Part shown: positions 2,593-44,824 of the stretch, in pieces
Layout of the letters: each line of letters opens with the position of its first letter
Position numbering within the stretch: position 1 is the first letter of the stretch
Source: Alphaproteobacteria bacterium
GTDB taxonomy: Bacteria > Pseudomonadota > Alphaproteobacteria > ATCC43930 > CGMCC-115725
Direction: 5' to 3'
NCBI GenBank assembly: GCA_028871455.1
Contig: JAGWNF010000005.1
Location: forward strand, 62,001-126,000
Length of the DNA: 64,000 nt
Position numbers and translations under genes: made by a program
The notes under the pieces: generated by a model
What the model saw: only the letters and a program-made list of their open reading frames with translations
Told to the model about the DNA's origin: nothing
Database searches by the model: none

Positions 2593-3534
2593 CTACAGCG
2601 CCTTGAGAAACGCCTCGATATCGGCCGGAGTGCCGATCGACTGACCGGTCAAGTCGCGATCGATGCGCTTGGCGAGTCCGCTCAGAACACGGCCGGCACC
2701 AACCTCGATGAGCGCAGTGACGCCGTGCGTCTTCATATACAGGATGCTCTCGCGCCAGCGCACCAACCCTGTCACCTGCTTCACCAGCAATTCCTTGATC
2801 TCGCCCGGATCGCGCACCGCCTGCGCCGTGACGTTGGCGACGAGCGGCACCAGTGGTTCGCCCAGTGCCACGTCGGCGAGCGCCTCGGCCATCTCGCGCG
2901 CCGCCGGCTCCATCAGCGCACAATGGAACGGTGCACTGACCGGCAGCATGATCGCACGCTTGGCGCCACGGCTCGCAGCATGGACGACGGCGCGTTCGAC
3001 CGCAGCCCGGTGACCGCTCACCACCACTTGGCCGGCGCCGTTGTCGTTCGCCGCCTCGACCACTTCGCCCTGCGCCACCTCGCTGGCAACCGTGCGGGCG
3101 GCGTCGAGTTCGAGACCGAGAAGCGCCGCCATGGCGCCGATACCGACCGGCACGGCGCGCTGCATGGCGCGGCCGCGGCGCTTCAATAGGCGCGCGGCAT
3201 CGGCGATCGCAAGCGCATGCGCCGCGGCCAGCGCCGAGTATTCGCCCAGCGAATGGCCCGCGACGAACGCGGCGTGTCGCTTCAGGTCGAGGCCGCCCTC
3301 CTTCTCCATGACGCGCATCGCTGCGAGGCTCATGGCCATTAGCGCCGGCTGCGCGTTTTCGGTCAGGATGAGATCGGCCTCGGGTCCCTCGAACATCAGG
3401 CGCGACAGATTCTGTTTCAGCGCCTCGTCGATCTCACCGAAGACCTCGCGCGCCGTTGCGAAAGCGGTATGCAATTCGCGGCCCATGCCGACAGCCTGCG
3501 AGCCCTGGCCAGGAAATACGAAAGCGCGACTCAT
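2593..3534 (-). CDS. fabD: Malonyl-CoA:ACP transacylase
   Basis: A 313-residue acyltransferase that loads malonate onto ACP. It shows the N-terminal FPGQGSQ oxyanion loop, the nucleophile Ser95 in GHSLGEYSALAAA and the catalytic His in SAPFHCALM. The length fits the family (about 310). It is the first classical fab gene of the minus-strand operon, 20 bases ahead of fabG, and a small lipoprotein gene ends 10 bases upstream of its start. Confidence 0.97.
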   Translation of the reverse strand: MSRAFVFPGQGSQAVGMGRELHTAFATAREVFGEIDEALKQNLSRLMFEGPEADLILTENAQPALMAMSLAAMRVMEKEGGLDLKRHAAFVAGHSLGEYSALAAAHALAIADAARLLKRRGRAMQRAVPVGIGAMAALLGLELDAARTVASEVAQGEVVEAANDNGAGQVVVSGHRAAVERAVVHAASRGAKRAIMLPVSAPFHCALMEPAAREMAEALADVALGEPLVPLVANVTAQAVRDPGEIKELLVKQVTGLVRWRESILYMKTHGVTALIEVGAGRVLSGLAKRIDRDLTGQSIGTPADIEAFLKAL

Positions 3535-5958: not shown

Positions 5959-6788
5959 AGACCGTGGCGCTGCCGGGCGGCGAACGCGTGCCGGGGCTCG
6001 GCCTCGGCACCTGGATAATGGGCGAGCACGGCGCCCACGATCCTGCCGCGGTCGCGGCACTGGCGCGTGGCATCGAACTCGGCATGACTCTGATCGACAC
6101 CGCCGAGATGTACGGCAATGGTGGCGCCGAGGAACTGGTGGGTCAGGCGATCGCCGGCTGCCGCAACCGTGTCTTCGTCGTGAGCAAAGTATTGCCATCG
6201 AACGCGTCGCGCGCCGGCGTCGCGGCAGCTTGCGAACGCAGCCTCAAACGCCTCCGCATCGATCGTATCGATCTCTATCTCCTCCATTGGAGCGGTAGCG
6301 TGAAACTGGCGGAGACGGTCGCCGGCTTCACCGCGCTGCAGCGCGCCGGCAAGATCCGTTACTGGGGCGTTTCCAATCTCGATCTCGACGAAATGGAAGA
6401 GATTTGGGCCTTGCCGGATGGCAACGGCTGCGCCGCCAACCAAGTCCTCTATAACCTCGGCCGCCGCGGCATCGAATGGGATCTCCTGCCGGCGTTGGCC
6501 AAGCGCGGCATCCCTGTGATGGCCTATTCGCCGCTCGAACAGGGTGGGCTCCTGAGCAGGCGGGCGCTGCGGGACGTGGCGGCCGCACATGGCGCCACGC
6601 CGGCCCAGGTCGCCATCGCCTGGCTGCTGCAGCGGCCCGGCGTCATCGTCATTCCCAAGGCCGCCGAACTCGCCCACGTCGCGGAGAACCGTGCCGCCCT
6701 CGACCTCGTCCTGACGCCTTCGGACCTTGCGGCCCTCGATCGGGCCTTTCCGCCGCCGCAACGGAAGGTGCCGCTGGCCATGCTCTAA
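5955..6788 (+). CDS. Aldo/keto reductase
   Basis: A 277-residue TIM-barrel oxidoreductase. The AKR tetrad is visible: Asp48 and Tyr53 in LIDTAEMYG, Lys78 in VVSKVLP and His111 in LYLLHW. NADPH-binding features are near the C-terminus ([20 protein letters not shown]). It probably reduces aldehydes or 2,5-diketogluconate-like sugars in the cytosol; the substrate cannot be read. I use the GTG start at 5955, which overlaps the hydrolase relic by four bases and gives the usual N-terminus. Confidence 0.9.
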
Positions 6789-6853
6789 ACGGGCTTGTCT
6801 AGAACCCGGGGATTGCAGGAAAATCGTCCCAAGGAAACGCTCCGGGGACGGCG

Positions 6854-8092
6854 ATGACTGTCGCACTATTGCTGCGCCACCTCGTACGCCGAGGCACTCT
6901 CCGCGTCATCGACGCGGCGGGGCACACGCGTGTATTCGCTGGAGCCCCGGGCAAGATCATTACCATCCGGCTACGCGACAAGAAGCTTGAGCGCGAACTC
7001 CTCTTCATGCCTCGCTTGATGCTGGGCGAAGCCTATATGGACGGCCGCCTGACGATCGAGGATGCAAGCCTTTACGATCTCCTCGATTTCCTGGCCGCCA
7101 ATATCAACCTGGCACCGAAGGGACTGCTGACGCCGCTTTACAACGGCTTCGGCCGTGCGTTCCGCACAATCCAGCAGTGGAATTCGGTGCGACGTTCGCG
7201 CCGGAACGTCGCGCACCATTACGACCTGTCCGATGCGCTCTACGATATCTTCCTCGACCGTGACCGGCAATATTCGTGCGCTTATTTCACCGCGCCGGAT
7301 CAGACGATCGACCAGGCCCAAGCGAACAAGAAGCGCCACATCGCGGCGAAGCTGCTCCTGAAGCCGGGACAGCGCGTGCTCGACATCGGTAGCGGCTGGG
7401 GCGGGCTGGCACTCTATCTGGCAAAGGAATGCGAGGTCGAAGTCACCGGCCTGACCTTGTCGATGGAGCAGCATCGCGCCGCCGAGCGCCGTGCCGCTGC
7501 CGCCGGACTGAGCTCGAAAGTACGCTTCAAGCTGCTGGATTACCGCCAGGAACGCGATCAGTACGACCGCATCGTCTCCGTCGGCATGTTCGAACACGTC
7601 GGGGTGCCGCAGTATCCCGGATTTTTCGGCAAGGTGAGGTCGCTGCTGAAGGATGACGGCGTCGCCCTGCTCCACGCCATCGGTCGCTCCGACGGAGCCG
7701 GTAGCACCAACCCCTGGATTCGCAAGTATATTTTCCCCGGCGGCTACTCCCCGGCCCTGTCTGAGGTGCTGCCAGTCGTCGAGCGCACCGGCCTTTGGGT
7801 CACCGACATCGAGATTCTCCGGCTGCACTATGCTGAGACCCTGCGCGCTTGGCGCACCCGTTTCCTTGCCGAGCGCGAGCGCGTCAAGGCGCTTTACGAC
7901 GAGCGCTTCTGCCGGATGTGGGAATTCTATCTGGCCGGATCCGAGGTCGCTTTCCGCTATCAGGGCCACATGGTCTGGCAGATGCAGATGGCACGCCGTG
8001 TCGACGCGGTCCCGCTCACCCGCGATTACATGTTCGACTGGGAACGCAGCCATCAGGCACCTGCCGCCGCCGGAGCCGGACGCGCCGCGTAA
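6854..8092 (+). CDS. cfa: Cyclopropane-fatty-acyl-phospholipid synthase family methyltransferase
   Basis: A 412-residue protein with an N-terminal lipid-binding region (residues 1-110) and a SAM methyltransferase domain. HHYDLSDALYDIFLDRDRQYSCAYF around 121-145 and the SAM loop VLDIGSGWGGLALYLA at 175-190 are hallmarks of the CFA/mycolic acid cyclopropane synthase family. These enzymes methylenate or methylate the double bond of membrane phospholipid acyl chains. Length is slightly above E. coli Cfa (382). It stands alone between the reductase and dnaB; a GGGGACGGCG stretch precedes the ATG. Confidence 0.9.
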   Translation: MTVALLLRHLVRRGTLRVIDAAGHTRVFAGAPGKIITIRLRDKKLERELLFMPRLMLGEAYMDGRLTIEDASLYDLLDFLAANINLAPKGLLTPLYNGFGRAFRTIQQWNSVRRSRRNVAHHYDLSDALYDIFLDRDRQYSCAYFTAPDQTIDQAQANKKRHIAAKLLLKPGQRVLDIGSGWGGLALYLAKECEVEVTGLTLSMEQHRAAERRAAAAGLSSKVRFKLLDYRQERDQYDRIVSVGMFEHVGVPQYPGFFGKVRSLLKDDGVALLHAIGRSDGAGSTNPWIRKYIFPGGYSPALSEVLPVVERTGLWVTDIEILRLHYAETLRAWRTRFLAERERVKALYDERFCRMWEFYLAGSEVAFRYQGHMVWQMQMARRVDAVPLTRDYMFDWERSHQAPAAAGAGRAA

Positions 8093-35973: not shown

Positions 35974-36071
35974 GACAAGAGATGCGGGCGCGTCGCTGGC
36001 CTTGAGCGCCGCCGATTGGCGGCAGGACCGCGACCGGGTCCGGGGAACGCCCGCACTTATATCCTCGCTGC

Positions 36072-36521
36072 CTACTCGTCCAGATGCAACCGGAGGTAAG
36101 CCATTTCCAGCACCCTCGCGGCGTCGTCAATCTCCTTCCTTTCTTCCGGCGTGAACAATGAGAAGTCAATAGAATCGGGGTGTTTGGGGCCTGAATTTTT
36201 GTCGGATTCACGGTTGCCAGCCGGTTTGCGCGCCGCCAGTGCCAGGGTTTCAGCGATGCGGATGAACCGTGCATCACCCTGAGCGGCACGGTTGACGACC
36301 TGTTTGACCATCGCCTCCATTTTCGTGATCTTTTTGCGACGGCCGTTCTCCAGGGTGATGGGAATACGCTGGGCGAATTCGGCCTCGAAAGCCTCAGCCA
36401 GACTGGGCATCTGTCGGCCGCGCGGCCGACCGCTGGGATTGCCGGACTGGCCCTTCTTGAACCGGGTCTCGGCCGGCGGCTTGCCATAGCCGACTTCGTA
36501 ATCGCTTCCATCAAGCGGCAT
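36072..36521 (-). CDS. DUF5681 domain protein
   Basis: 149 residues from the ATG at 36521. The N-terminus YEVGYGKPPAETRFKKGQSGNPSGRPRGR is the DUF5681 signature, usually seen in phage or mobile-element proteins next to methylases or terminases. The middle is KMEAMVKQVVNRAAQGDARFIRIAETLA, and the C-terminus is acidic. It overlaps the end of the ParB-methylase gene by 11 bases, so the two are co-transcribed. Function unknown; the basic N-terminus suggests DNA binding. Confidence 0.75.
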   Translation of the reverse strand: MPLDGSDYEVGYGKPPAETRFKKGQSGNPSGRPRGRQMPSLAEAFEAEFAQRIPITLENGRRKKITKMEAMVKQVVNRAAQGDARFIRIAETLALAARKPAGNRESDKNSGPKHPDSIDFSLFTPEERKEIDDAARVLEMAYLRLHLDE

Positions 36522-37812
36522 GGCTCGCCTCCGCTTCGGCCTCGATTGCGGCAAAGGTCCGGCCCGTGCCCGCATGGATCGCCGTCTGGCCGGTGAAGTC
36601 CTGCCAGCGCCGAACGACCGTATCGATGTTGCGCGGATCGAGATCGAGACCGTAGCCGCGCCGTCCCATACGTTCGGCGGCGATCACCGTCGCGCCCGAG
36701 CCCAGGAACGGGTCGAGGACGATGGCATCCTGGGCGATGCTATCCGTGATGGCGTCAGCCACGAGGCTGACCGGTTTGCGGGTGGGATCGTGGATCGCGG
36801 CAGCGCTTTTGCGTTTGGTCCTTTTTCGGGTCGGGGCACAGTCGCGGTAGCGCCAAAGATTGCTGCGCTGGCGGTCCGGTTGTGGGGTCTGGGCAGGCGG
36901 GCGTTGGGGTGCGGTGGAATGTCTGAAGACGCAGACGAGCTCGTGCTGACTCGCATAGAGCTCACCCTCCTCAGCCTTGTCCTTCGCCCAGACGCAGAGA
37001 TCCGCGAGCGTGTGGTAGGCCGATTGACCGGCCGCCAGGACCGCCCGCAGGTCACGCCAGTCGGCGCATATATAATGAAGGGCACCCTCGGCGCTTTCGA
37101 CGGCCAGGAACTGGCAGGCTTGCGTCAACAAGGCCGTGAACTGGCCCTCGTCGACGGCACCCGCCGCGCCGATCAGCGGCGGCATGCGGGATACCGTCGT
37201 GAACACCATGGCAGCGGGTTCGGCCTGCATCAGCATGTGGTAGTCCATGGGCTGAAGCGGATCGCCGCAGAGCACGCGGTGGTGGCCCAGGATCCAGAGA
37301 TCGCCGAGGCGCGATACCGCCGGTCCGGGCGGCGGCAGGCGGTCGGCCGGGTCCCGGCCCGAGCCCGAGGCGCCGAGGCTCTCGATCCGGCAGTCGATTT
37401 CACCAACGGTGAAACCTGTGGCTTCGAGGCTGAAGTTGAGCTCGCCCGTTGCCAAGTCCTCAAGTTGCTCGGCGAGCCGGTCGTCATCCCAGGTCGAGAG
37501 CTCGGCCAGCCGGTTGTCGGCAATCTGAAAGGCGCGGGCTTGGGCGTCCGTCAGATGGTCGACCTGGATCGTCGGCACTTCGGTAAGCCCGAGTTCCTTG
37601 GCTGCGGCGATGCGGCCATGTCCGGCGATCACCTTGTGATCGCGATCGACCAGGACTGGAACATTGAAGCCGAAGGTCGCGATGCTCTTGGCGAGCTTGC
37701 CGACCTGGTTGCGGCTATGGCGTCGCGGGTTACGTGGGTCGAGCTTCAGGTTATCGAGGGGAACGTACGTGACATTAAGTTTGGCAGCAGAAGCTGCGTT
37801 GAAACCATTCAT
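36511..37812 (-). CDS. ParB-DNA methylase fusion with a lost catalytic motif
   Basis: 433 residues. Residues 15-125 are a ParB/sulfiredoxin-like domain (LDNLKLDPRNPRRHSRNQVGKLAKSI, VIAGHGRIAAAKELG). Residues 165-430 are a beta-class N6-adenine or N4-cytosine methylase in which motif IV comes before motif I. Motif I is intact (VLDPFLGSGATVIAAE, 366-380), but where relatives have DPPY this protein reads FTTVSRMPPL at 204-213. The linker is also shortened and proline/basic-rich (300-340). It is probably catalytically dead. It starts at 37812 and is followed by DUF5681. Confidence 0.8.
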   Translation of the reverse strand: MNGFNAASAAKLNVTYVPLDNLKLDPRNPRRHSRNQVGKLAKSIATFGFNVPVLVDRDHKVIAGHGRIAAAKELGLTEVPTIQVDHLTDAQARAFQIADNRLAELSTWDDDRLAEQLEDLATGELNFSLEATGFTVGEIDCRIESLGASGSGRDPADRLPPPGPAVSRLGDLWILGHHRVLCGDPLQPMDYHMLMQAEPAAMVFTTVSRMPPLIGAAGAVDEGQFTALLTQACQFLAVESAEGALHYICADWRDLRAVLAAGQSAYHTLADLCVWAKDKAEEGELYASQHELVCVFRHSTAPQRPPAQTPQPDRQRSNLWRYRDCAPTRKRTKRKSAAAIHDPTRKPVSLVADAITDSIAQDAIVLDPFLGSGATVIAAERMGRRGYGLDLDPRNIDTVVRRWQDFTGQTAIHAGTGRTFAAIEAEAEASHAA

Positions 37813-38008
37813 AGAACTTGCTTCTAAAAATAGGAGCGGCGGTATATCGACGGATCATAAAATCTAAAGTCACCATCAAACCAATCACTCACCTTGTTAA
37901 TCGCGCCGCGACTATAGGCGACGCTTAGCGAGAACAATTCCCGCGTGATTATGTCTATCACAGGCCCCCAAGAAAATCAAGAAAAATCTTTATGCACCAA
38001 TTGGTTAG

Positions 38009-38044
38009 CGACTCTACGACTCTGGAAACGACTCTACGACTCTG
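38009..38044. repeat. Two direct copies of a 16-base repeat, 20-base period
   Basis: CGACTCTACGACTCTG occurs at 38009-38024 and again at 38029-38044, separated by GAAA. Each copy itself contains CGACTCT twice. The spacing of about two helical turns resembles iterons or tandem protein sites, but with only two copies nothing can be assigned. Confidence 0.75.
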
Positions 38045-38574
38045 TCTTTTTGCGCCGCGAATGGGATGAATCCACAGTCGGAGCTCGGGTCCGTTTCCGA
38101 TCGATTGCATCCGGCCTTTGCTGATGTCGCGCCGATTACGTTGCGCAAGCCGTGCTGGCCATGCCCAGAGTGCGCCGATCGAGCGATCCAATCGCCGGCA
38201 CTTTTTTCGGTCCGCGTCACGTCGTGATCGAGTTTCGGTCCGCGTCCCTGAACGTCGGATGACTGTAGGCACGGCGACTCCAGCCGACCGCATACGGCCG
38301 CTGCCGAGCGCGGAGTTTGAATGCCGGTGCCCGGGTGTTAGGCACCCGAATCTCGCAGGGGCGCAGCCCGTGGCGACCGCGAGACTGTTGGTGCGGATGG
38401 ACCGTTTCGCTGCGGCAGGTGCCTGGGGGAAAACCACAGGGTATTGGCTCTCCGATATGGGCCCTGGAACGTGCCGTCCCTAGGCCTCGAATGCGCCGCT
38501 TGTTGGCCGCGAGGTTATTATTGTGGTTTGTCCTTTCTATAAATGGATATATTGTGGAATACATCAATTAATAC

Positions 38575-38603
38575 TTGACATTATTCGGATGGCATACTAT
38601 ATT
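38575..38603 (+). promoter_or_regulatory. Strong sigma-70-type promoter of the DUF932 operon
   Basis: A consensus TTGACA at 38575-38580 and TATATT at 38598-38603 with the optimal 17-base spacer, inside an AT-rich patch unlike the surrounding high-GC DNA. Transcription would begin near 38610, about 50 bases before the first small gene. Confidence 0.75.
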
Positions 38604-38660
38604 TACTGACGAGGATGGCCAAAATCCGCCCTTAAATCCCCTCCCATAAGGAGTCTCGCC

Positions 38661-38876
38661 ATGGACGGCTACCAAGCCGTGCTGGCGGCCTACCGTGCCC
38701 AGGCGCGTCGGCTTTTAGCCGCCGCGCCGACGGGGCAGCAACGCGCCCGGCTCGAGCGCCAGTTCGCCGAATGCGTCCTGCGCAACCGGGCCAAGCTGCT
38801 CATCGCGCGGCTGCAACAGACCGGCGATGACACGGTCCGCCGCCGCATCCTCCGAGAAGTCTTCCCAGACCTTTAG
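38661..38876 (+). CDS. 71-residue hypothetical protein, first gene of the DUF932 operon
   Basis: A basic, helical protein: MDGYQAVLAAYRAQARRLLAAAPTG then RARLERQFAECVLRNRAKLLIARLQQTGDDTVRRRILREVFPDL. AAGGAG lies 9 bases before the ATG, and the gene follows a strong promoter, so I am confident it is expressed. I recognise no family. The arginine-rich helices could bind nucleic acid. The next gene starts 80 bases later, after a two-hairpin leader. Confidence 0.7.
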   Translation: MDGYQAVLAAYRAQARRLLAAAPTGQQRARLERQFAECVLRNRAKLLIARLQQTGDDTVRRRILREVFPDL

Positions 38877-38938
38877 CGCCTCTCACCCTGCGGCATTGCG
38901 GTGCCGCGGGGTCGAGGCGTTGGAGCAATCCCGCTCCA
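38877..38938 (+). promoter_or_regulatory. Two-hairpin leader element, copy 1 (before DUF932)
   Basis: Hairpin 1: CGCCTC (38877-38882) plus ACCC (38885-38888) pair with GGGT (38909-38912) plus GAGGCG (38914-38919), with an inner stem GCGGCA (38890-38895) to TGCCGC (38902-38907). Hairpin 2: TGGAGC (38921-38926) to GCTCCA (38933-38938). An AAGGAG follows 6 bases later and then the DUF932 ATG. From 38886 to 38926, 36 of 41 bases match the second copy at 40034-40074. Likely an RNA element acting on translation or transcript processing; function unknown. Confidence 0.65.
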
Positions 38939-38956
38939 TTCATAAGGAGACTTTCC

Positions 38957-40021
38957 ATGAAACTTGGACGTTCTCTGACCGATCTCGCAACCGAGATCGA
39001 CCGTCAGGCCAAGGCGAAGCAGGACTACGTTGCATCGACCACCAAGCTCAAGGCCGTCCCCGGGCTCGACCCGAAGGCGACCGACTTGGTGATCGAGGAT
39101 ATCGGCTGGTTCCCCTTGCGGGACCTGGCGCTCACCCAGATCGGCGAGCGCACCGGCATCCCGACGAAGTACCTGCGGCGCATGCAGGACGAGGCTCCGG
39201 AACTGCTCGCGGACAACATCAATCACTGGTTCCACGAGACCCCGGAGCGCCGCATGGTTCGCACCCTCGACGGGACGGTGCGCGCGTTCTTGTCCGACAA
39301 GTACCAGCGCATCGATAACTTCGACGTGGCGAACGTCGTGCTGCCGGTCCTGCATGACATCCCGGGCCTGCGGATCCTCTCGACCGAGGTCACGGAACAC
39401 CGCCTTTATATCAAGGCGGCGACTAGCGCCCTCACCCGCGAATTGAAATCGCGGCGCGTCGGCGACCTGGTCGAGGCCGGAGTCATGATCTCGAATTCCG
39501 AGGTCGGGCTCGGTGCCGTGACGGTCTCGCCGTTCGCCCTCTTCCTCACCTGCCTCAACGGCGCGGTGCGGGAAGGCGGCAAGCGGTGGAACCACATCGG
39601 CCGCCACGCGGCGGTGACGGAGAATCCCTATCTCCTCATCTCCGACGAGACCAAGGCGGCCGACGACCGGGCGCAACTGCTCATGGTCCGCGACACGCTC
39701 AAATCCGCGCTCAATGCGGAGATGTTCGACCGCTGGCTCGACAAGGTCCAAGGGACCACCGGGCGGCGGCTCGAGGGCGATGTCGGCAAGGCAGTGGAGG
39801 TTCTCGCGAACAGCCTCAGCCTGACCAAGGACGAGCAAAGCTCGGTCTTGCGGCATCTCATCGAAGGCGGCGATCTGAGCCAGTACGGGCTCTTCAACGC
39901 CGTCACGCGGACGGCCGAGGACAGTGCGAGCTACGACCGTGCGACCGAGCTCGAGACGCTCGGCGGACGGGTGATCGAGCTCAATCCGTCCGAATGGCGT
40001 GAACTCGCCATCGCGGCTTAA
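38957..40021 (+). CDS. DUF932 (phage/plasmid-like) protein
   Basis: 354 residues of the DUF932 family, common on plasmids, phages and islands: LPLRDLALTQIGERTGIPTKYLRRM-type N-terminal segment (here FPLRDLALTQIGER), RTLDGTVRAFLSDKYQRIDNFDVANVVLP, GVMISNSEVGLGAVTVSPFALFLTCLNGAV and WNHIGRHAAV. No enzymatic motif is evident and the biochemical role is unknown. It is the middle gene of the operon 38661-40209 and is flanked on both sides by copies of the same leader element. Confidence 0.85.
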   Translation: MKLGRSLTDLATEIDRQAKAKQDYVASTTKLKAVPGLDPKATDLVIEDIGWFPLRDLALTQIGERTGIPTKYLRRMQDEAPELLADNINHWFHETPERRMVRTLDGTVRAFLSDKYQRIDNFDVANVVLPVLHDIPGLRILSTEVTEHRLYIKAATSALTRELKSRRVGDLVEAGVMISNSEVGLGAVTVSPFALFLTCLNGAVREGGKRWNHIGRHAAVTENPYLLISDETKAADDRAQLLMVRDTLKSALNAEMFDRWLDKVQGTTGRRLEGDVGKAVEVLANSLSLTKDEQSSVLRHLIEGGDLSQYGLFNAVTRTAEDSASYDRATELETLGGRVIELNPSEWRELAIAA

Positions 40022-40027
40022 GGCGAA

Positions 40028-40086
40028 CCTCAACCCTGCGGCGCTGCGGCACCGCGGGGTTGAGGCGTTGGAGCATGCCGCTCCAA
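40028..40086 (+). promoter_or_regulatory. Two-hairpin leader element, copy 2 (before the 36-residue peptide)
   Basis: Hairpin 1: CCTCAACCC (40028-40036) pairs perfectly with GGGTTGAGG (40057-40065), with an inner GCGG (40038-40041) to CCGC (40052-40055). Hairpin 2: TTGGAGC (40068-40074) pairs with GCTCCAA (40080-40086), loop ATGCC. A GGGAGA ribosome site follows directly and the ATG is at 40099. All five differences from copy 1 over the 41-base core are transitions, and one pair of them swaps A-T for G-C in the inner stem. Confidence 0.65.
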
Positions 40087-40098
40087 GGGAGATATCCC

Positions 40099-40209
40099 AT
40101 GTGGCTTTGGTTGCTGTTGCATCTCCTCGTGCCCGCCTGGCTTTTCCTCGTGCTGCTGGTCTTCTCGATCCTCGGATGGATCGACTGGCTCTGCGAAGCG
40201 ATTGGCTAG
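40099..40209 (+). CDS. 36-residue single-span membrane peptide
   Basis: A tiny gene that a normal length cutoff would miss: MWLWLLLHLLVPAWLFLVLL, then VFSILGWIDWLCEAIG. One transmembrane helix fills nearly the whole peptide, with six tryptophans toward the ends and an acidic C-terminus. It has a GGGAGA ribosome site, lies 77 bases after DUF932, and is followed 27 bases later by a strong terminator. Its size resembles type I toxins and small membrane regulators, but no family is recognised. It shares its leader structure with DUF932. Confidence 0.6.
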   Translation: MWLWLLLHLLVPAWLFLVLLVFSILGWIDWLCEAIG

Positions 40210-40236
40210 GGTGCCGGAAGAGACAACATTCAAACG

Positions 40237-40270
40237 AAAAGGGCACCCCTACCCAGGGGTGCCCTTTTTT
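40237..40270. terminator. Rho-independent terminator, probably bidirectional
   Basis: GGGCACCCC (40241-40249) pairs with GGGGTGCCC (40256-40264) around a 6-base loop, followed by six T on the plus strand and preceded by four A. It ends the DUF932 operon and, read on the other strand, lies 41 bases past the mazF stop. Confidence 0.9.
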
Positions 40271-40311
40271 GTGCGTACGGATCATCGGCGGTAGAGGGAC
40301 TGCGGCTCGCC

Positions 40312-40641
40312 TCAGTCGGCGAGACCCATGACAAACGCCAGTGCGATGTCGAGGCGTCCGACATCGTCAGAACTCAGTCGACCGATTATGCGACTGATCC
40401 GATTGCGTCGGACGGTGACCGGCTTGTCGGCCATCACTTGCGAGCGCACGCGGAGCCCATTGGACGAACTCGGTTCGATAGTCACCCGGAAGTCAGGTGC
40501 ATCGACCAGCTCGGACGTCATCTGACAGATCACGACGGAAGCGTGGCTTTCGGGAAATGCGTCGGTCTGGACGATCACCGCCGGACGTGGCTTGCCATAG
40601 TCGCCGCTCGCGGCGACGGCGACCACGTCACCGCGCCGCAT
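40312..40641 (-). CDS. mazF: MazF/PemK-type mRNA interferase toxin
   Basis: 109 residues: RRGDVVAVAASGDYGKPRPAVIVQTD at the N-terminus, then SHASVVICQMTSELVDAPDFRVTI, and a C-terminal LDIALAFVMGL helix, the PemK/MazF fold. These toxins cut mRNA at short sequences and are neutralised by their antitoxin. It overlaps the antitoxin gene by 14 bases, the usual antitoxin-first order, and ends near a bidirectional terminator. Confidence 0.9.
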   Translation of the reverse strand: MRRGDVVAVAASGDYGKPRPAVIVQTDAFPESHASVVICQMTSELVDAPDFRVTIEPSSSNGLRVRSQVMADKPVTVRRNRISRIIGRLSSDDVGRLDIALAFVMGLAD

Positions 40642-40837
40642 CGGCGTCGAACGTGGAAACCGCCTCGATCCACTTCAAGGCTTCGTCCTCGCCGCGCCGA
40701 TCGAGCCTGGCGACCGAGGCAGCCACGCGGCGCCGGACGGATCGCGAGCGCGCATCGGGCACGACGAGGCGCAATTCACGGAGGCCGCGCGCACGGCGCC
40801 GCACCCGCATGATTTTCATCCGTTCAGCCGCCGTCAT
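40628..40837 (-). CDS. MazE-like antitoxin (DUF3018 type)
   Basis: 69 residues: TAAERMKIMRVRRRARGLRELRLVVPDARS, a basic ribbon-helix-helix-like N-terminus, and a C-terminal DEALKWIEAVSTFD that would bind the toxin. This is the short antitoxin family often paired with PemK-type toxins. The frame extends to 40927 but the ATG at 40837 has an ideal GGAGG five bases upstream. Tandem palindromes lie just upstream of that ribosome site, suggesting autoregulation. Confidence 0.82.
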   Translation of the reverse strand: MTAAERMKIMRVRRRARGLRELRLVVPDARSRSVRRRVAASVARLDRRGEDEALKWIEAVSTFDADAAR

Positions 40838-40854
40838 CGTATCCTCCACCAGCC

Positions 40855-40881
40855 GTAACGCGTGACAGTGTAACGCGTTAC
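40855..40881. promoter_or_regulatory. Twin operator palindromes upstream of the mazEF-like pair
   Basis: A perfect 12-base palindrome GTAACGCGTTAC at 40870-40881 and a near copy GTAACGCGTGAC at 40855-40866, spaced 15 bases. They lie 18 to 44 bases before the antitoxin ATG. Paired palindromes in that position are typical operators for autoregulating antitoxins; binding by this MazE-like protein is inferred. Confidence 0.6.
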
Positions 40882-40948
40882 GCCATGCCGTGCAATGAGG
40901 GCGGAAACCCCGCACGTAATTTCTCATATCAATTTCTCTGCCTGCCGG

Positions 40949-41179
40949 TCAGCCTTTCTTCCGCAGCCGGACCCCAGGCCCCTCGCCGTTGCCGTCGAGG
41001 AAGATGACGCCGGCGCGCTCGAGCACGCGTTTGAATTTGGCAAGCGTTGCACCATAGGCATCCGAGCCGTTCTCGAACCGGCTGACGGTATTGGCGGCGA
41101 CGCCGGCTTTCTCGGCGAGGTCGCGCACACTCCAGTTCACGGCGGCCCGCGCCATCCGCAGCTGTTCGCGGGTGATCAC
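40949..41179 (-). CDS. Cro/C1-type helix-turn-helix regulator
   Basis: 76 residues from a GTG at 41179: MITREQLRMARAAVNWSVRDLAEKAGVAANTVSRFENG, a classical XRE helix-turn-helix, followed by TLAKFKRVLERAGVIFLDGNGEGPGVRLRKKG. The frame reaches 41236 but that would place the start inside its own operator, and GAGGG stands 4 bases before the GTG. It diverges from the Gp157-Rad52 operon and probably represses it. Small XRE regulators of this kind control many mobile elements. Confidence 0.82.
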   Translation of the reverse strand: MITREQLRMARAAVNWSVRDLAEKAGVAANTVSRFENGSDAYGATLAKFKRVLERAGVIFLDGNGEGPGVRLRKKG

Positions 41180-41201
41180 CTGGCCCTCACGATCGTTCGC
41201 G

Positions 41202-41249
41202 TTGACACGCCAGCATTGTATGTGTACAGATAACACATATCAGTGTACA
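41202..41249 (+). promoter_or_regulatory. Promoter with overlapping operator for the Gp157-Rad52 operon
   Basis: TTGACA at 41202-41207 and TACAGA at 41225-41230 have a 17-base spacer. A 7-base inverted repeat TATGTGT (41219-41225) and ACACATA (41233-41239) straddles the -10 hexamer exactly. GTGTACA occurs at 41222-41228 and again at 41243-41249, 21 bases apart (two helical turns). The layout is what a repressor-blocked promoter looks like; the divergent XRE protein is the natural candidate. Confidence 0.6.
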
Positions 41250-41277
41250 TTAGACCATCCGTTTTGGGAGGTGCCCG

Positions 41278-41781
41278 ATGGATCCAACTCTATCCCATAG
41301 CCTGAGCGAGCATGAATACCTGCGGAAATGTCTCGAGGAGGGGTTTCCAGAGGCTGACGACGAGACTCTCCGGGACACGCTCGAAGGCCTGAGCAGCTTG
41401 CCGGAGGTGCTGTCGGCGGTGATCCGGGCCTATCTCGAGGATCTGAGCCTGGCCGCGGCTCTGGGCATGCGGATCGCGGACATGCAGGAGCGGCTCGCTA
41501 GGTTCGAGGCTCGGGCCGAAAGGAAGCGGGCGCTGGTGACGCAAGTGATGGAGCGGGCCGAGCTCAAGAAGCTGCAGGAGCCCGAGTTCACGGTGTCGCT
41601 CCGGACGGTACCGCCGGGGCTGGTGGTGAGCGACGAAGCGCAGATCCCAACCGATTACTGGAAACCGCAGCCCGCCAAGCTCGACAAGAAAGGGCTCTTG
41701 GCAAGCCTCAACGCCGGCCAGGCAATCCCGGGGGCTGGTCTCGGGAACGGCGGCACCACCATCTCGGTGAGGACACGCTAA
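41278..41781 (+). CDS. Gp157 family phage-resistance/recombination-associated protein
   Basis: 167 residues matching the siphovirus Gp157 pattern: acidic helical N-terminal half (LEDLSLAAALGMRIADMQERLARFEARAERKRALVTQVMERAELKKLQEPEFTVSLR) and the C-terminal IPTDYWKPQPAKLDKKGLLASLNAGQAIPGAGL. Gp157 proteins are encoded beside single-strand annealing proteins in phages; the role is not established. GGGAGG precedes the ATG. Its stop overlaps the Rad52-like gene start by one base, so they are one operon. Confidence 0.82.
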   Translation: MDPTLSHSLSEHEYLRKCLEEGFPEADDETLRDTLEGLSSLPEVLSAVIRAYLEDLSLAAALGMRIADMQERLARFEARAERKRALVTQVMERAELKKLQEPEFTVSLRTVPPGLVVSDEAQIPTDYWKPQPAKLDKKGLLASLNAGQAIPGAGLGNGGTTISVRTR

Positions 41782-43118
41782 TGGCCTTCACCCAGACCCA
41801 AGTCCGGAAACTCGCCGGCAAGCTCCCCGAGCGCTTCGTCAAGACGCGGACCGAGCGGGGCATGACGCTCTCCTACGTCGAGGGCTGGCATGTGATCGAC
41901 GAAGCCAACCGGGTCTTCGGATTCGACGGCTGGGACCGCGAGACGGTCTCGGCCGAGTGTGTTTGGCAGGACGCACGCGTGGCGCCGAAGGCCTGCAGCT
42001 ATGCCGTGCGGGTCCGTATCAAGGTGCGGGCCGGCAAAACCATCGTGTCACGGGAGGGCACTGGCATCGGACATGGAACGGGCACCACCCTAGGTGACGC
42101 CCATGAAAGTGCCCTCAAGGAAGCCGAGACCGATGCCACCAAGCGGGCGCTCATCACCTTCGGCAACCTGTTCGGGCTTGCCCTCTACGATAAGGCGCAG
42201 ACCGGCGTGCAGCGCGCCAAAGGTCATGAAGCGGCGCTGGTGGCCTGGACGCTGGCGCGGAGCGGTCAGCCGCCGCAACCCTTCGAAAGCCCGGAGCAGT
42301 TCTGCTCCGCAGCCAAGGAAGCATTGCGCCTGGCGCAGTCGGCCGCGGACCTCGAGGCGCTCTGGACCGCCAATGCGCCGACAGTCGCCCAACTCCGGGC
42401 CATCCAGCCGGAACTGCGGACGCGCAGCGGCAGCCATTATGCTGACCTCCTCGAAAGCCTCTATCGCGAACAACGGAAAGCGCTCGAGCAGCAAGGTCCA
42501 CAGTCCGCAGCCGTGGCGGACGTTGTGGCGCCGGCTGCAAGTCCCCAACCATCGTCGGAAGCGCCGATGACGGAAGGCCCGAGCCCAGCGGTAGTGCCAA
42601 TGACCGAGGCGCCGGCGGACAAGTCCGCACTGACCATCACGATGCCACGGCGGATCCGTGACGCCGCCCACCTCAAATACGTCGCCGCCCTGCCCTGCCT
42701 GGTCTGTGGCCGCACGCCGAGCCACGCCCACCACCTGCGCTTCGCGCAGCCGCGATCGCTTGGCAGCAAAGTGAGCGATGAATGGACGGTGCCGCTCTGC
42801 CCAATTCATCACCGCACGCTGCACGACACGGGGCGCGAAGAGGCGTGGTGGCAGGTAAAGGGCATCGACGCGAAGGCCGAGGCCGAACGGCTGTGGGGCA
42901 AAACCCATGCGGCCGGAGTTTCGGCGATGTTGCCGGCGTCTGGCGTGGCCAGCCGCGATCGATCGGAACGGTCGACGCCCCGATTGGAGCCGGCGAGTGC
43001 AACCGGAACCGGCCATCAACCTGCTGACGTTCTCCGCGACACCCCTGCACCCCAGTCGCCACCGACCGATGACCGGGGCTTGCCCTTGCCCCTCAACCTA
43101 AAGGTCGAAACATCGTGA
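41781..43118 (+). CDS. Rad52-like annealing protein fused to an HNH-type (DUF968-like) nuclease
   Basis: 445 residues. Residues 1-150 are a Rad52/DdrA-type annealase: YVEGWHVIDEANRVFGFDGWDRE, then GTTLGDAHESALKEAETDATKRALITFGNLFGLALYD. A Pro/Ala linker (about 240-285) leads to a zinc/HNH-like domain at 288-375: Cys306 and Cys309 in LPCLVCGR, His315, His317 and His318 in SHAHHLRF, then Cys340, His343, His344 and His348 in PLCPIHHRTLH, ending WWQVKGIDAKAEAERLW. An annealase joined to a nuclease suggests coupled strand annealing and end or junction cutting. The last 60 residues are disordered-looking. Confidence 0.8.
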   Translation: MAFTQTQVRKLAGKLPERFVKTRTERGMTLSYVEGWHVIDEANRVFGFDGWDRETVSAECVWQDARVAPKACSYAVRVRIKVRAGKTIVSREGTGIGHGTGTTLGDAHESALKEAETDATKRALITFGNLFGLALYDKAQTGVQRAKGHEAALVAWTLARSGQPPQPFESPEQFCSAAKEALRLAQSAADLEALWTANAPTVAQLRAIQPELRTRSGSHYADLLESLYREQRKALEQQGPQSAAVADVVAPAASPQPSSEAPMTEGPSPAVVPMTEAPADKSALTITMPRRIRDAAHLKYVAALPCLVCGRTPSHAHHLRFAQPRSLGSKVSDEWTVPLCPIHHRTLHDTGREEAWWQVKGIDAKAEAERLWGKTHAAGVSAMLPASGVASRDRSERSTPRLEPASATGTGHQPADVLRDTPAPQSPPTDDRGLPLPLNLKVETS

Positions 43119-43280
43119 TCACGGCGCTCGCTTATTAGGGGCTACCACCGGGCAGGTGTCCGACCTCCGCAACCGTTTCTGTCCCTAGGTCGCCCGCCGG
43201 CTTTGCGACCTTGGTCGCGGCTAAGTCGAGGTCATTGCGATGATCAGCCCATTGCAATTCGAGGCTCATCGTCAACCCGC

Positions 43281-43309
43281 TTGAAAATATGCTTGAACAG
43301 GCATAGGTT
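43281..43309 (+). promoter_or_regulatory. Promoter with internal palindrome for the HigBA-like pair
   Basis: TTGAAA (43281-43286) and TAGGTT (43304-43309) have a 17-base spacer. An 18-base near-perfect palindrome, TATGCTTGAACAGGCATA at 43288-43305, fills that spacer; one pair and the central AA do not match. The placement fits an operator bound by the XRE antitoxin. Start of translation is 17 bases further at 43327. Confidence 0.55.
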
Positions 43310-43326
43310 AATTACGGATTTGGGAC

Positions 43327-43725
43327 ATGGTGAAGCCGCCCAGTGAATACCAGCCCAAGCCGGTGCACTGGGTCGGCAATAGCAAAGAGGCCCTGAGCGG
43401 CTTCCCTGAGGAAGTGCGGCGTCGTGTCGGCGGCGCGTTGTGGGAGGCGCAGATCGGCCGCAAGGTGCCCTATGCCAATCCGCTCAAAGGGTTCGGCGAT
43501 GCGGGTGTGTTGGAGATCGTGGACGACTTCGAAGGCGACACGTTCCGTGCCGTCTATTCCGTGCGGTTTGCCGAAGCGATCTATGTGCTGCATGCCTTCC
43601 AGAAGAAATCCAAGCGAGGCGTTGCTACACCCAAGGCCGATTTAAAGTTGATCAATCAGCGTCTCAAACGAGCGAGAAGGGATTACGAGCAATGGTCAAG
43701 AAGCGAAAAGTCACCATCCCGGTAA
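43327..43725 (+). CDS. HigB/RelE-superfamily toxin (phage Gp49-like)
   Basis: 132 residues: KPVHWVGNSKEALSGFPEEVRRRVGGALWEAQIGRK, then ANPLKGFGDAGVLEIVDDFEGDTFRAVYSVRFAEAIYVLHAFQKKSKRG, the Gp49-like RelE fold, whose members are ribosome-dependent mRNA endonucleases. The catalytic basic residues near FQKKSKRG are retained. The toxin-first order, with the antitoxin overlapping by 34 bases, is typical of higBA. Confidence 0.88.
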   Translation: MVKPPSEYQPKPVHWVGNSKEALSGFPEEVRRRVGGALWEAQIGRKVPYANPLKGFGDAGVLEIVDDFEGDTFRAVYSVRFAEAIYVLHAFQKKSKRGVATPKADLKLINQRLKRARRDYEQWSRSEKSPSR

Positions 43726-44042
43726 CAGCGAGTACCGGCAACGTCTTTGCCGACATGGGATTGCCCGAAGCCGAGGAGGAGCTGACCAAGGCGCAACTTG
43801 CGAGCCACATCCGGCAGATAATCAAGCGCGCGCGTTTGACCCAGGTTGCCGCAGCGGCGCTCATGGGAATCGATCAACCGAAGGTGTCAGCGCTTCTTAA
43901 TGGACGGCTCACGAATTTCTCTGGCGACCGTTTGATGCGTCTGCTGACCGCACTGGGCCACGACGTGGAGATCATGGTCAAGACCAAGCCACGCAGTCGC
44001 TCGCATGGGCGTGTCCGCGTCGTTGGCGAGGCACACGTATGA
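43692..44042 (+). CDS. HigA-like XRE antitoxin
   Basis: 116 residues from the ATG at 43692, inside the toxin gene's 3' end. The sequence has NVFADMGLPEAEEELTKAQLASHIRQIIKRARLTQVAAAALMGIDQPKVSALLNGRLTNFSGDRLMRLLTALGHDVEI, the XRE family that partners Gp49-like toxins. The helix-turn-helix is LTQVAAAALMGIDQPKVSALLNG. It probably binds the palindrome in the upstream promoter. The basic C-terminal tail is short. Confidence 0.88.
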   Translation: MVKKRKVTIPVTASTGNVFADMGLPEAEEELTKAQLASHIRQIIKRARLTQVAAAALMGIDQPKVSALLNGRLTNFSGDRLMRLLTALGHDVEIMVKTKPRSRSHGRVRVVGEAHV

Positions 44043-44151
44043 CAAGGTGGCGCTAAGCGAGACGACCTCTCCTAAATCTCCGCCAGCGGACGGTCAGGGC
44101 CAGCCACTACCCGTCAATCTGCACGCCGACGCACCGCGGCTCGGCTGACCC

Positions 44152-44634
44152 ATGACCAGCCAATTGCAGATCGAAGCCAATCGACGCAATGCCCGGCTCA
44201 GCACCGGGCCCAAGACAGCCGAGGGCCGCGCCACCAGCCGGATGAATGCGTTGAAGCACGGCCTTACGGCTCGCCAGATCGTGCTCTTCGATGAAACGAC
44301 GGAGGACTTCGAGGCCTTTTTCAGCGAGATCATTGCCGCGCTCAAGCCCGGGGATCCGGTCGAGACACAGCTTGCCGAGCGCATCGCCGTCTGCGCCTGG
44401 CGGCTGCGGCGCTCCTACTGCATCGAAGCGGCCATGTTCGAGAACGTCCGGCGCAGTTGGACCAACGGCGCCCCCACCATCACGTCACGGATCGAGCACT
44501 TGTTCGTCCGAGTGACCGCGCACGAGGATCATCTCGCTAAGCTCAACCGCTACGAGGTCACGCTTGAGCGATCGCTTCAGCGGGCGTTGGTCGCGCTGGA
44601 GCACAGGCAAATGCGACGCCTCAATCGGAGCTAG
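44152..44634 (+). CDS. Hypothetical protein of a widespread accessory family
   Basis: 160 residues beginning MTSQLQIEANRRNARLSTGPKTAEGRATSRMNALKHGLTARQ. The N-terminal NRRNARLSTGPKTAEGRA..SRMNALKHGLTA pattern is one I recognise as recurrent in hypothetical proteins of alphaproteobacteria and planctomycetes, with no assigned function. The rest is helical (QLAERIAVCAWRLRRSYCIEAAMFENVRRSW). It is the last protein gene of the island before the tRNA. Confidence 0.65.
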   Translation: MTSQLQIEANRRNARLSTGPKTAEGRATSRMNALKHGLTARQIVLFDETTEDFEAFFSEIIAALKPGDPVETQLAERIAVCAWRLRRSYCIEAAMFENVRRSWTNGAPTITSRIEHLFVRVTAHEDHLAKLNRYEVTLERSLQRALVALEHRQMRRLNRS

Positions 44635-44708
44635 CGATTAGCTATCAAGCCAACTTGATCGGAGCCGTACCGGCATGTTTGGTTTCTGTTCGGGGTTCGC
44701 TGCAAGCC

Positions 44709-44737
44709 TTGCGCGATACGCGGCGAACGTCTAATTA
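44709..44737 (+). promoter_or_regulatory. Promoter of tRNA-Glu
   Basis: TTGCGC at 44709-44714 and TAATTA at 44732-44737 with a 17-base spacer; the tRNA begins 12 bases after the -10 box. The -35 hexamer is identical to the one before rpsF. Confidence 0.65.
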
Positions 44738-44748
44738 GGCGGCTCTGA

Positions 44749-44824
44749 GTCCCCATCGTCTAGAGGCCTAGGACGGGGCCCTCTCACGGCCCAAACCGGG
44801 GTTCGAATCCCCGTGGGGACGCCA
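44749..44824 (+). tRNA. tRNA-Glu, anticodon CTC
   Basis: 76 bases with an encoded CCA. The acceptor stem GTCCCCA pairs with TGGGGAC, the discriminator is G, and the anticodon loop is CTCTCAC, giving CTC. The T arm reads CCGGGGTTCGAATCCCCG. All four arms form without mismatch in the acceptor and T stems. Confidence 0.97.

Follow-up and report, generated by a model that had tools for sequence, protein, structure and literature searches.

A repeated two-hairpin leader before DUF932-like and other accessory genes: a candidate structured cis-acting RNA

Introduction

Why should two unrelated genes of one operon each be preceded by nearly the same noncoding sequence? The question is raised by a 64,000-nt stretch of alphaproteobacterial DNA (the window), part of a contig in a 3.0 Mb draft genome. 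An initial annotation, made from the letters of the window, had read this sequence as a two-hairpin leader RNA standing before a DUF932 gene and again before a short membrane peptide. Here we ask whether the repeated leader is a structured RNA, where else it occurs and what it might do for the genes that follow it.

Results and discussion

Two leaders in one operon

The three-gene operon, all on the + strand, is preceded by a sigma-70-like promoter at 38575–38603 (TTGACA, 17 nt, TATATT; 11 of 12 consensus matches); two promoter-like sites occur in 36000–43500, both strands counted, against a shuffle mean of 1.4. Its first gene is a 71-aa open reading frame (38661–38876) that has no assigned family and has weak partial matches in five other genomes among 385 of the class. 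Leader copy 1 (38877–38939) adjoins the stop codon of this frame and consists of a first hairpin (core 38885–38912) and a second (38921–38938), followed by a GGAGA ribosome site (38946–38950) placed 6 nt 5′ of the ATG at 38957, where the gene for a 354-aa DUF932-like protein begins (38957–40021). Just past the stop codon of that gene lies leader copy 2 (40025–40086; hairpin 1 core 40033–40060, hairpin 2 40069–40085), with its own GGAGA (40088–40092) again 6 nt 5′ of an ATG, at 40099, which opens a 36-aa hydrophobic membrane peptide (MWLWLLLHLLVPAWLFLVLLVFSILGWIDWLCEAIG; 40099–40209, within the frame 40060–40209) that found no match in family searches. Counted up to the gene starts, the leader stretches occupy 38877–38956 and 40022–40098; both leaders start at, or a few bases past, a stop codon and close with GGAGA-N6-ATG. 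At 40237–40268 (+ strand) the repeat listing and the sequence show a perfect 14-bp inverted repeat that ends in T, the probable terminator of the operon; the terminator scan gives this repeat on the − strand only.

Neighbours of the operon are phage- or plasmid-like and include a ParB/DNA methylase protein, DUF5681, a Cro-type regulator, Gp157, Rad52 with DUF968, and Gp49, along with a PemK/MazF-type toxin and its probable antitoxin (below the curated cut-off). The stretch 36000–44824 has the look of a phage- or plasmid-like island adjoining tRNA-Glu (44749–44824), and a direct repeat (CGACTCTACGACTCTG, two copies 20 nt apart) lies in intergenic DNA at 38009–38044, 5′ of the operon.

The DUF932-like protein matches phrog_1362, a family of unknown function, at E 1.5e-53 and is 41–48% identical to six plasmid or phage relatives. 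DUF932-type proteins occur in phages and plasmids. The name DUF932 is a putative one, taken from the RefSeq names of relatives and from phrog_1362; no match to DUF932 in Pfam was listed for the window protein at E up to 5, in a search whose filters may drop weak matches. The protein is scarce nearby, being found in one of 385 genomes of the class, namely its own.

The two leader cores (38885–38927 and 40033–40075) align without gaps over 43 nt and agree at 38 of them (88%), and their five differences are all transitions, as the initial annotation had stated. When copy 1 was compared by blastn with its own 3.0 Mb genome, copy 2 was found at E 2.3e-11 and the next best match at E 0.49, with no third copy below that value. 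The long-then-short arrangement of stem-loops before a ribosome site also held up: fold energies are −43.8 and −45.1 kcal/mol for copies 1 and 2 (z −5.89 and −5.75; 0 of 200 shuffles as stable in either case). Hairpin 1 by itself reaches −34.1 and −35.2 kcal/mol. The short hairpin, folded separately, stands out less (z −2.4; its stability is matched by 5 of 200 shuffles). The replacement of A-T by G-C in the inner stem, which the initial annotation had pointed out, is real, but copy 2 breaks the adjacent pair by a change from C-G to C.A; because of this broken neighbour, the window pair alone is weak evidence for selected pairing, and the evidence suggesting selection on pairing is supplied by three copies from outside the window.

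Copies in other genomes

Searched with a covariance model built from the two window copies (R1), 39 genomes of the family returned 40 places with E no higher than 1, including two outside places with both hairpins, GGAGA and ATG (L021 in genome G022 and L025 in genome G013). A pattern scan of a collection of 85,000 species gave seven stretches, three of them real as judged by arm complementarity and reading: L149 (identical in place to L025), L151 (likewise to L021) and a copy not met before, L150 (JAKAPE010000021, Proteobacteria YF1.bin4). In all, five leader copies are found in four genomes, each a draft or metagenome assembly. Since the order of L150 is larger than the window's order of 43 genomes, we infer that at least two orders have the leader.

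The genes that follow the outside copies differ. L150 stands directly 5′ of a relative of DUF932 (MKIGRSLSEVAAEIERQARTKQDYIADTRQLS...), whose N-terminus is 58% identical to the window protein over 36 residues; L149 precedes a frame beginning MGQYHTPVCIEAEEAL, for which Pfam gave no family match at E up to 5 and the searches of plasmids and phages gave no relative; L151 precedes a frame beginning MSTRACYRFIP.... Two of the contigs break off within the downstream gene, 35 nt into it at L151 and 108 nt into it at L150 (JAKAPE010000021; the other accession is JASIAN010000282). Upstream of the L151 leader, at 6556–7344 of that locus, lie frames that by eye resemble Cas2 and the first half of Cas1.

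Could the window pair be a plain local duplication within the operon, and the outside copies functionless chance look-alikes? The window copies are 84% alike in the five-copy comparison, which a recent duplication would explain, and many GC-rich palindromes score 20–33 bits with our models. Against this, the outside copies score 59–72 bits with a second covariance model (R2), compared with at most 33.2 bits for look-alikes, though L149 (as L025) and L151 (as L021) are among the sequences from which R2 was built. L150 is absent from R2, yet it scores 59.2 bits and precedes a DUF932 relative in spite of having been found by DNA pattern. We regard the chance explanation as very improbable. The initial annotation had staked its reading on further copies being found and on pairing being retained in homologues; both were observed, since one further copy stands before a second DUF932 gene and two more before other frames, and double changes keep the pairing.

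Structure and covariation

Hairpin 1 consists of ACCCU, one arm of seven pairs, an NGCR loop, the opposite arm and GGGGU (12 pairs). Across the five copies, 59 of 60 pair cells are paired, and six of the 12 pairs have changed on both sides. The covariation score of 0.633 was reached by none of 500 shuffles (0.243 in shuffles), and sliding the partners by one to three columns lowered the paired cells to 37–62%. Two coarser measures were less sharp, 12 of 500 shuffles having as many pairs with changes on both sides and 6 of 500 as many pair types; all of these shuffles ignore the relatedness of the five copies. RNAalifold, given no structure, drew both hairpins, with seven of 18 pairs changed on both sides. 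It drew hairpin 2 with six pairs, the outermost and the two innermost of which were each broken in two of five rows; the innermost breaks arise because the alignment is off by one, and hand alignment gives five pairs in every copy. Non-Watson-Crick pairs comprise seven G-U against two A-C and one other, a weak excess (about 0.09, one-sided, for seven against two) in the direction expected if the + strand pairs as RNA. Invariant in all five copies are ACCCU/GGGGU with its U-G pair, the loop GC and the CCGCU of hairpin 2. An outer stem, which closes hairpin 1 in the two window copies, could not be made out in the other three and is omitted here. On these comparisons, the RNA structure of the leader is well supported.

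The same letters might instead serve as a DNA element, that is, an inverted-repeat operator or a recombination site, like the extended start-associated sequences (ESAS) or REP-type palindromes, that happens to precede genes. The dyads are near perfect, and the mobile, phage-like surroundings in the window (Rad52, Gp157, Gp49, ParB-methylase) would suit such an element. The closest precedent comes from cluster K mycobacteriophages, in which ESAS form an inverted-repeat module just before the starts of various non-structural genes, with repeat sequences specific to groups (PLoS One 2011, PMC3203893). As described there, an ESAS is made up of a single 17-bp inverted repeat together with a 13-bp repeat (GGGATAGGAGCCC), the latter at the start codon. 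The authors reported that departures in its arms are in general not of a kind to support pairing as RNA, and they favoured a DNA-binding protein (PMC3203893).

Our leader resembles ESAS in being a repeated module, mostly in one orientation, with a group-specific repeat consensus and gene families that tend to keep the module (PMC3203893). It differs in that its departures keep pairing (six of 12 pairs changed on both sides), whereas those of ESAS generally do not (PMC3203893), and in its make-up of two hairpins and GGAGA-N5/6-ATG; GGGATAGGAGCCC, the ESAS repeat, is absent from all five leaders. ESAS is the nearest known case that we found. Three observations speak against a DNA element here: seven of the 12 arm pairs of hairpin 1 vary with pairing kept, whereas the operator of a dimer should keep the letters of its half-sites; a G-U mismatch is fixed within the dyad; and the five accepted copies have the same orientation and an adjacent start codon. 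We consider a DNA element improbable.

Position and function

The leader is a discrete unit. The distance from ACCCT to the ATG is 66–74 nt in five of five copies, the 110 nt upstream show no significant similarity between copies, and the first 108 nt of the downstream genes are dissimilar except in the two DUF932 genes (75% over 72 nt), so the likeness lies in the leader and not its flanks, as had been claimed for the window pair. L149 and L150, which come from two bins of one metagenome, are 86% alike but stand before unrelated genes; other pairs are 51–73% alike. GGAGA-N5/6-ATG is present in five of five leaders; as a rough control, it was found at none of 26 window ORFs whose starts had been picked mechanically. 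Such five-of-five counts are partly selection, because hairpin 2, the ribosome site and the start codon were also used for acceptance. With that proviso for position and start codon, the leader appears to carry the comparative marks of a structured cis-acting leader RNA (compensatory changes, fixed position, one orientation).

Position, orientation and the included ribosome site point to translation. The reading that we prefer, and to which we would give about an even chance, is that of a conserved cis-acting RNA, structured and about 70 nt long, which brings its own ribosome site and acts as a portable translation-control module for accessory genes. Hairpin 1 would offer a trans-acting factor a rigid site to bind, or would insulate the ribosome site from upstream RNA and from decay; it looks more like a binding site or cap than a spacer, because the letters of its base and loop are invariant and those of its arms variable. 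The 3′ side of hairpin 2 (CUCC or CUCU) could pair with the 5′ arm of that hairpin or, alternatively, with the ribosome site, and would help to tune how open the ribosome site is. In the window, where the leader occurs twice in one operon, a single kind of control would then govern translation of both the DUF932-like protein and the membrane peptide.

The 5′ arm of hairpin 2 is itself ribosome-site-like (GGAGC) in four copies and is GCGGC in L151. When this arm was blocked in silico, the 3′ arm paired with the ribosome site in copy 1 (0.98–0.99) and L149 (about 0.6), copy 2 was unchanged, and in L150 and L151 the ribosome site paired with a pyrimidine stretch 5′ of hairpin 1. Unblocked, the ribosome site is mostly paired (0.01–0.37 unpaired for the leader alone, 0.05–0.56 with 20 coding nt). 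The theme common to these predictions is a ribosome site with competing partners, but no single switch fits all five copies; a hairpin-2 switch at the ribosome site may be envisaged for some. A kissing interaction between the loop and hairpin 2, seen by eye in some copies, is broken in L149. In the terminator scan neither window leader hairpin was terminator-like, as the stem of an intrinsic terminator or attenuator, with its trailing run of T, would be.

The leader might instead be a constitutive element: hairpin 1 would block decay or be cut by an RNase, hairpin 2 would hold the strong ribosome site clear of upstream pairing, and no signal would be sensed. Each window copy occupies the gap between two genes of the operon, next to a stop codon, and combines the very stable hairpin 1 with a conserved GGAGA, all of which such a stability, processing or insulator element would explain. 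An insulator would call for stability alone, which would not account for the invariance of the loop GC, of CCGCU and of ACCCU/GGGGU with its U-G wobble. Moreover, the 100 nt before the three outside leaders are AT-rich (35–41% GC), and these copies therefore look like true 5′ leaders rather than intergenic spacers; a promoter-like site precedes one of the three and none was found at the other two. A constitutive element is a possible explanation, but we doubt it.

Riboswitches and protein-binding leaders typically combine a conserved fold directly before the ribosome site with covariation and possible alternative pairing of that site. Our leader is like them in the position of its fold, in its covariation and in possible alternative pairing with the ribosome site, but it is small and simple by comparison with metabolite aptamers; its downstream genes share no evident pathway, and the four copies scanned have no Rfam match.

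If a translation-control module is the right reading, the leader represents an RNA family as yet without a name, of which five members are known and which is absent from the libraries searched, and a movable part placed before unrelated accessory genes, twice in one operon; it would also offer a handle on DUF932-type proteins and a search model for the regulon and the factor that reads it. A bolder extension, which we think rather unlikely, is that a phage- or plasmid-like mobile element, present in two or more proteobacterial orders, marks the accessory genes that it carries with a common two-hairpin leader read by a factor that is element-encoded or co-carried, the letters of the stem being a per-element dialect while the fold, ACCCU/GGGGU, the loop GC and the ribosome site stay fixed. 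The leader would then be an address label for an RNA regulon, moving with the genes.

Distribution

The leader is rare. It is present in three of 43 genomes of the window's order by pattern search, where exact spacing gave eight places, four of them real; an exact-spacing search of the 39 family genomes gave 30 places, again with four real. In the order of L150, 10 of 199 genomes had a pattern match, of which only L150's own copy was real. R2 gave 17 places in 385 genomes of the class and 22 in the 39 family genomes; no copy was accepted in the class sample outside the window's own genome, a soft negative because only 14 first-look candidates per genome were scored. The 17 further R1 places outside that genome scored at most 22.7 bits with R2. 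Other R1 and R2 matches lacked the second hairpin, the ribosome site or the start codon, or were coding DNA or CCCTCCCCC-type palindromes, and reverse-strand matches at the leaders were dropped. Among the false matches, GC-rich stem-loops of the CCCTCCCCCGC type, which we take to be REP-like, were frequent; where read, they came without a second hairpin, ribosome site and start codon. A loose test (a 12-position stem with at least 10 pairs, then GGAG and a start codon), applied to 79 loci, was passed by L115 and L126, both without hairpin 2 and the former coding by eye. At L087 (genome G010) a perfect hairpin 1 comes without hairpin 2 or a ribosome site. Integron attC sites and cuckoo-type sRNAs were set aside by eye as identities for the leader.

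Mobile DNA yielded no further copy in the sets searched. Pattern searches of viral contigs gave 0, 34, 49 and 23 stretches, none accepted; three viral loci (L159, L181 and L193) have good stems without the remaining leader parts. R2 found no match before the gene in viral DUF932 loci (the best 80 of 103 relatives, two without upstream sequence), with two weak matches elsewhere in them (E 0.3 and 0.84), and in 10 DUF932 loci from plasmids, phages and elsewhere it gave no match at E up to 1; 18 viral Rad52-type loci had no leader. Nothing relevant came from blastn of plasmids and phages with the leaders of copy 1 and of L150, or of plasmids with that of L149. The leader is not a general companion of DUF932 genes, only two of those examined carrying it (in the window and at L150). 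The earlier reading stands in part: a duplicated or mobile cis-acting RNA is supported, while a switch, a processing site or a device that coordinates DUF932 and the peptide would be conjecture. No other copy was found preceding a relative of the peptide, and the other examined DUF932 genes are without the leader.

Rfam 15 returned only tRNA for the whole window. For 38500–40400 at E up to 5, the best match overlapping a leader, to F6, scored 23.5 bits against a gathering score of 46, and L021 and L025 had no match at E up to 1 (four copies scanned altogether). In a limited search of open literature on DUF932 or structured leaders, the element was absent from titles and abstracts.

Other DUF932 leaders

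Several other plasmid DUF932 genes have a strong hairpin just 5′ of the ribosome site, in Janthinobacterium (L041 and L044) and Piscinibacter (L042), at about 2940–3000 of each locus, and in Acaryochloris (L040), at about 2925–3000. We do not count these four as members because R2 fails to recover them. The leaders at L041 and L044 share their first ten letters (CACCCTGCGG) with copy 1, and R1 has a weak partial match 34–59 nt 5′ of the Piscinibacter gene (15 bits, E 0.3). By eye, the 5′ arm of the hairpin in L041, L044 and L042 seems to have two competing partners. Across 70 non-redundant DUF932 upstream regions, folding was slightly stronger than at 52 control gene starts: the median z was −1.02 against −0.52 (p 0.03), and z of −2 or below was found in 19 of 70 against 8 of 52; the strongest cases were not commoner, with z of −3 or below in 5 of 70 against 6 of 52.

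Two further kinds of structure were seen 5′ of DUF932 genes. Rfam gave no match for a stretch at about 1421–1471 of L323 and L324, 5′ of a viral DUF932 gene starting at 1501; its letters (AACGCTCTGACGAGTCCGTAAGGACGAAACTCCC...GGGAGTCAGCGTT) follow the layout of the hammerhead ribozyme consensus. In the last 100 nt before the DUF932 start, the pairs L272/L274 and L266/L319 each share a GC-rich structured sequence of another type.
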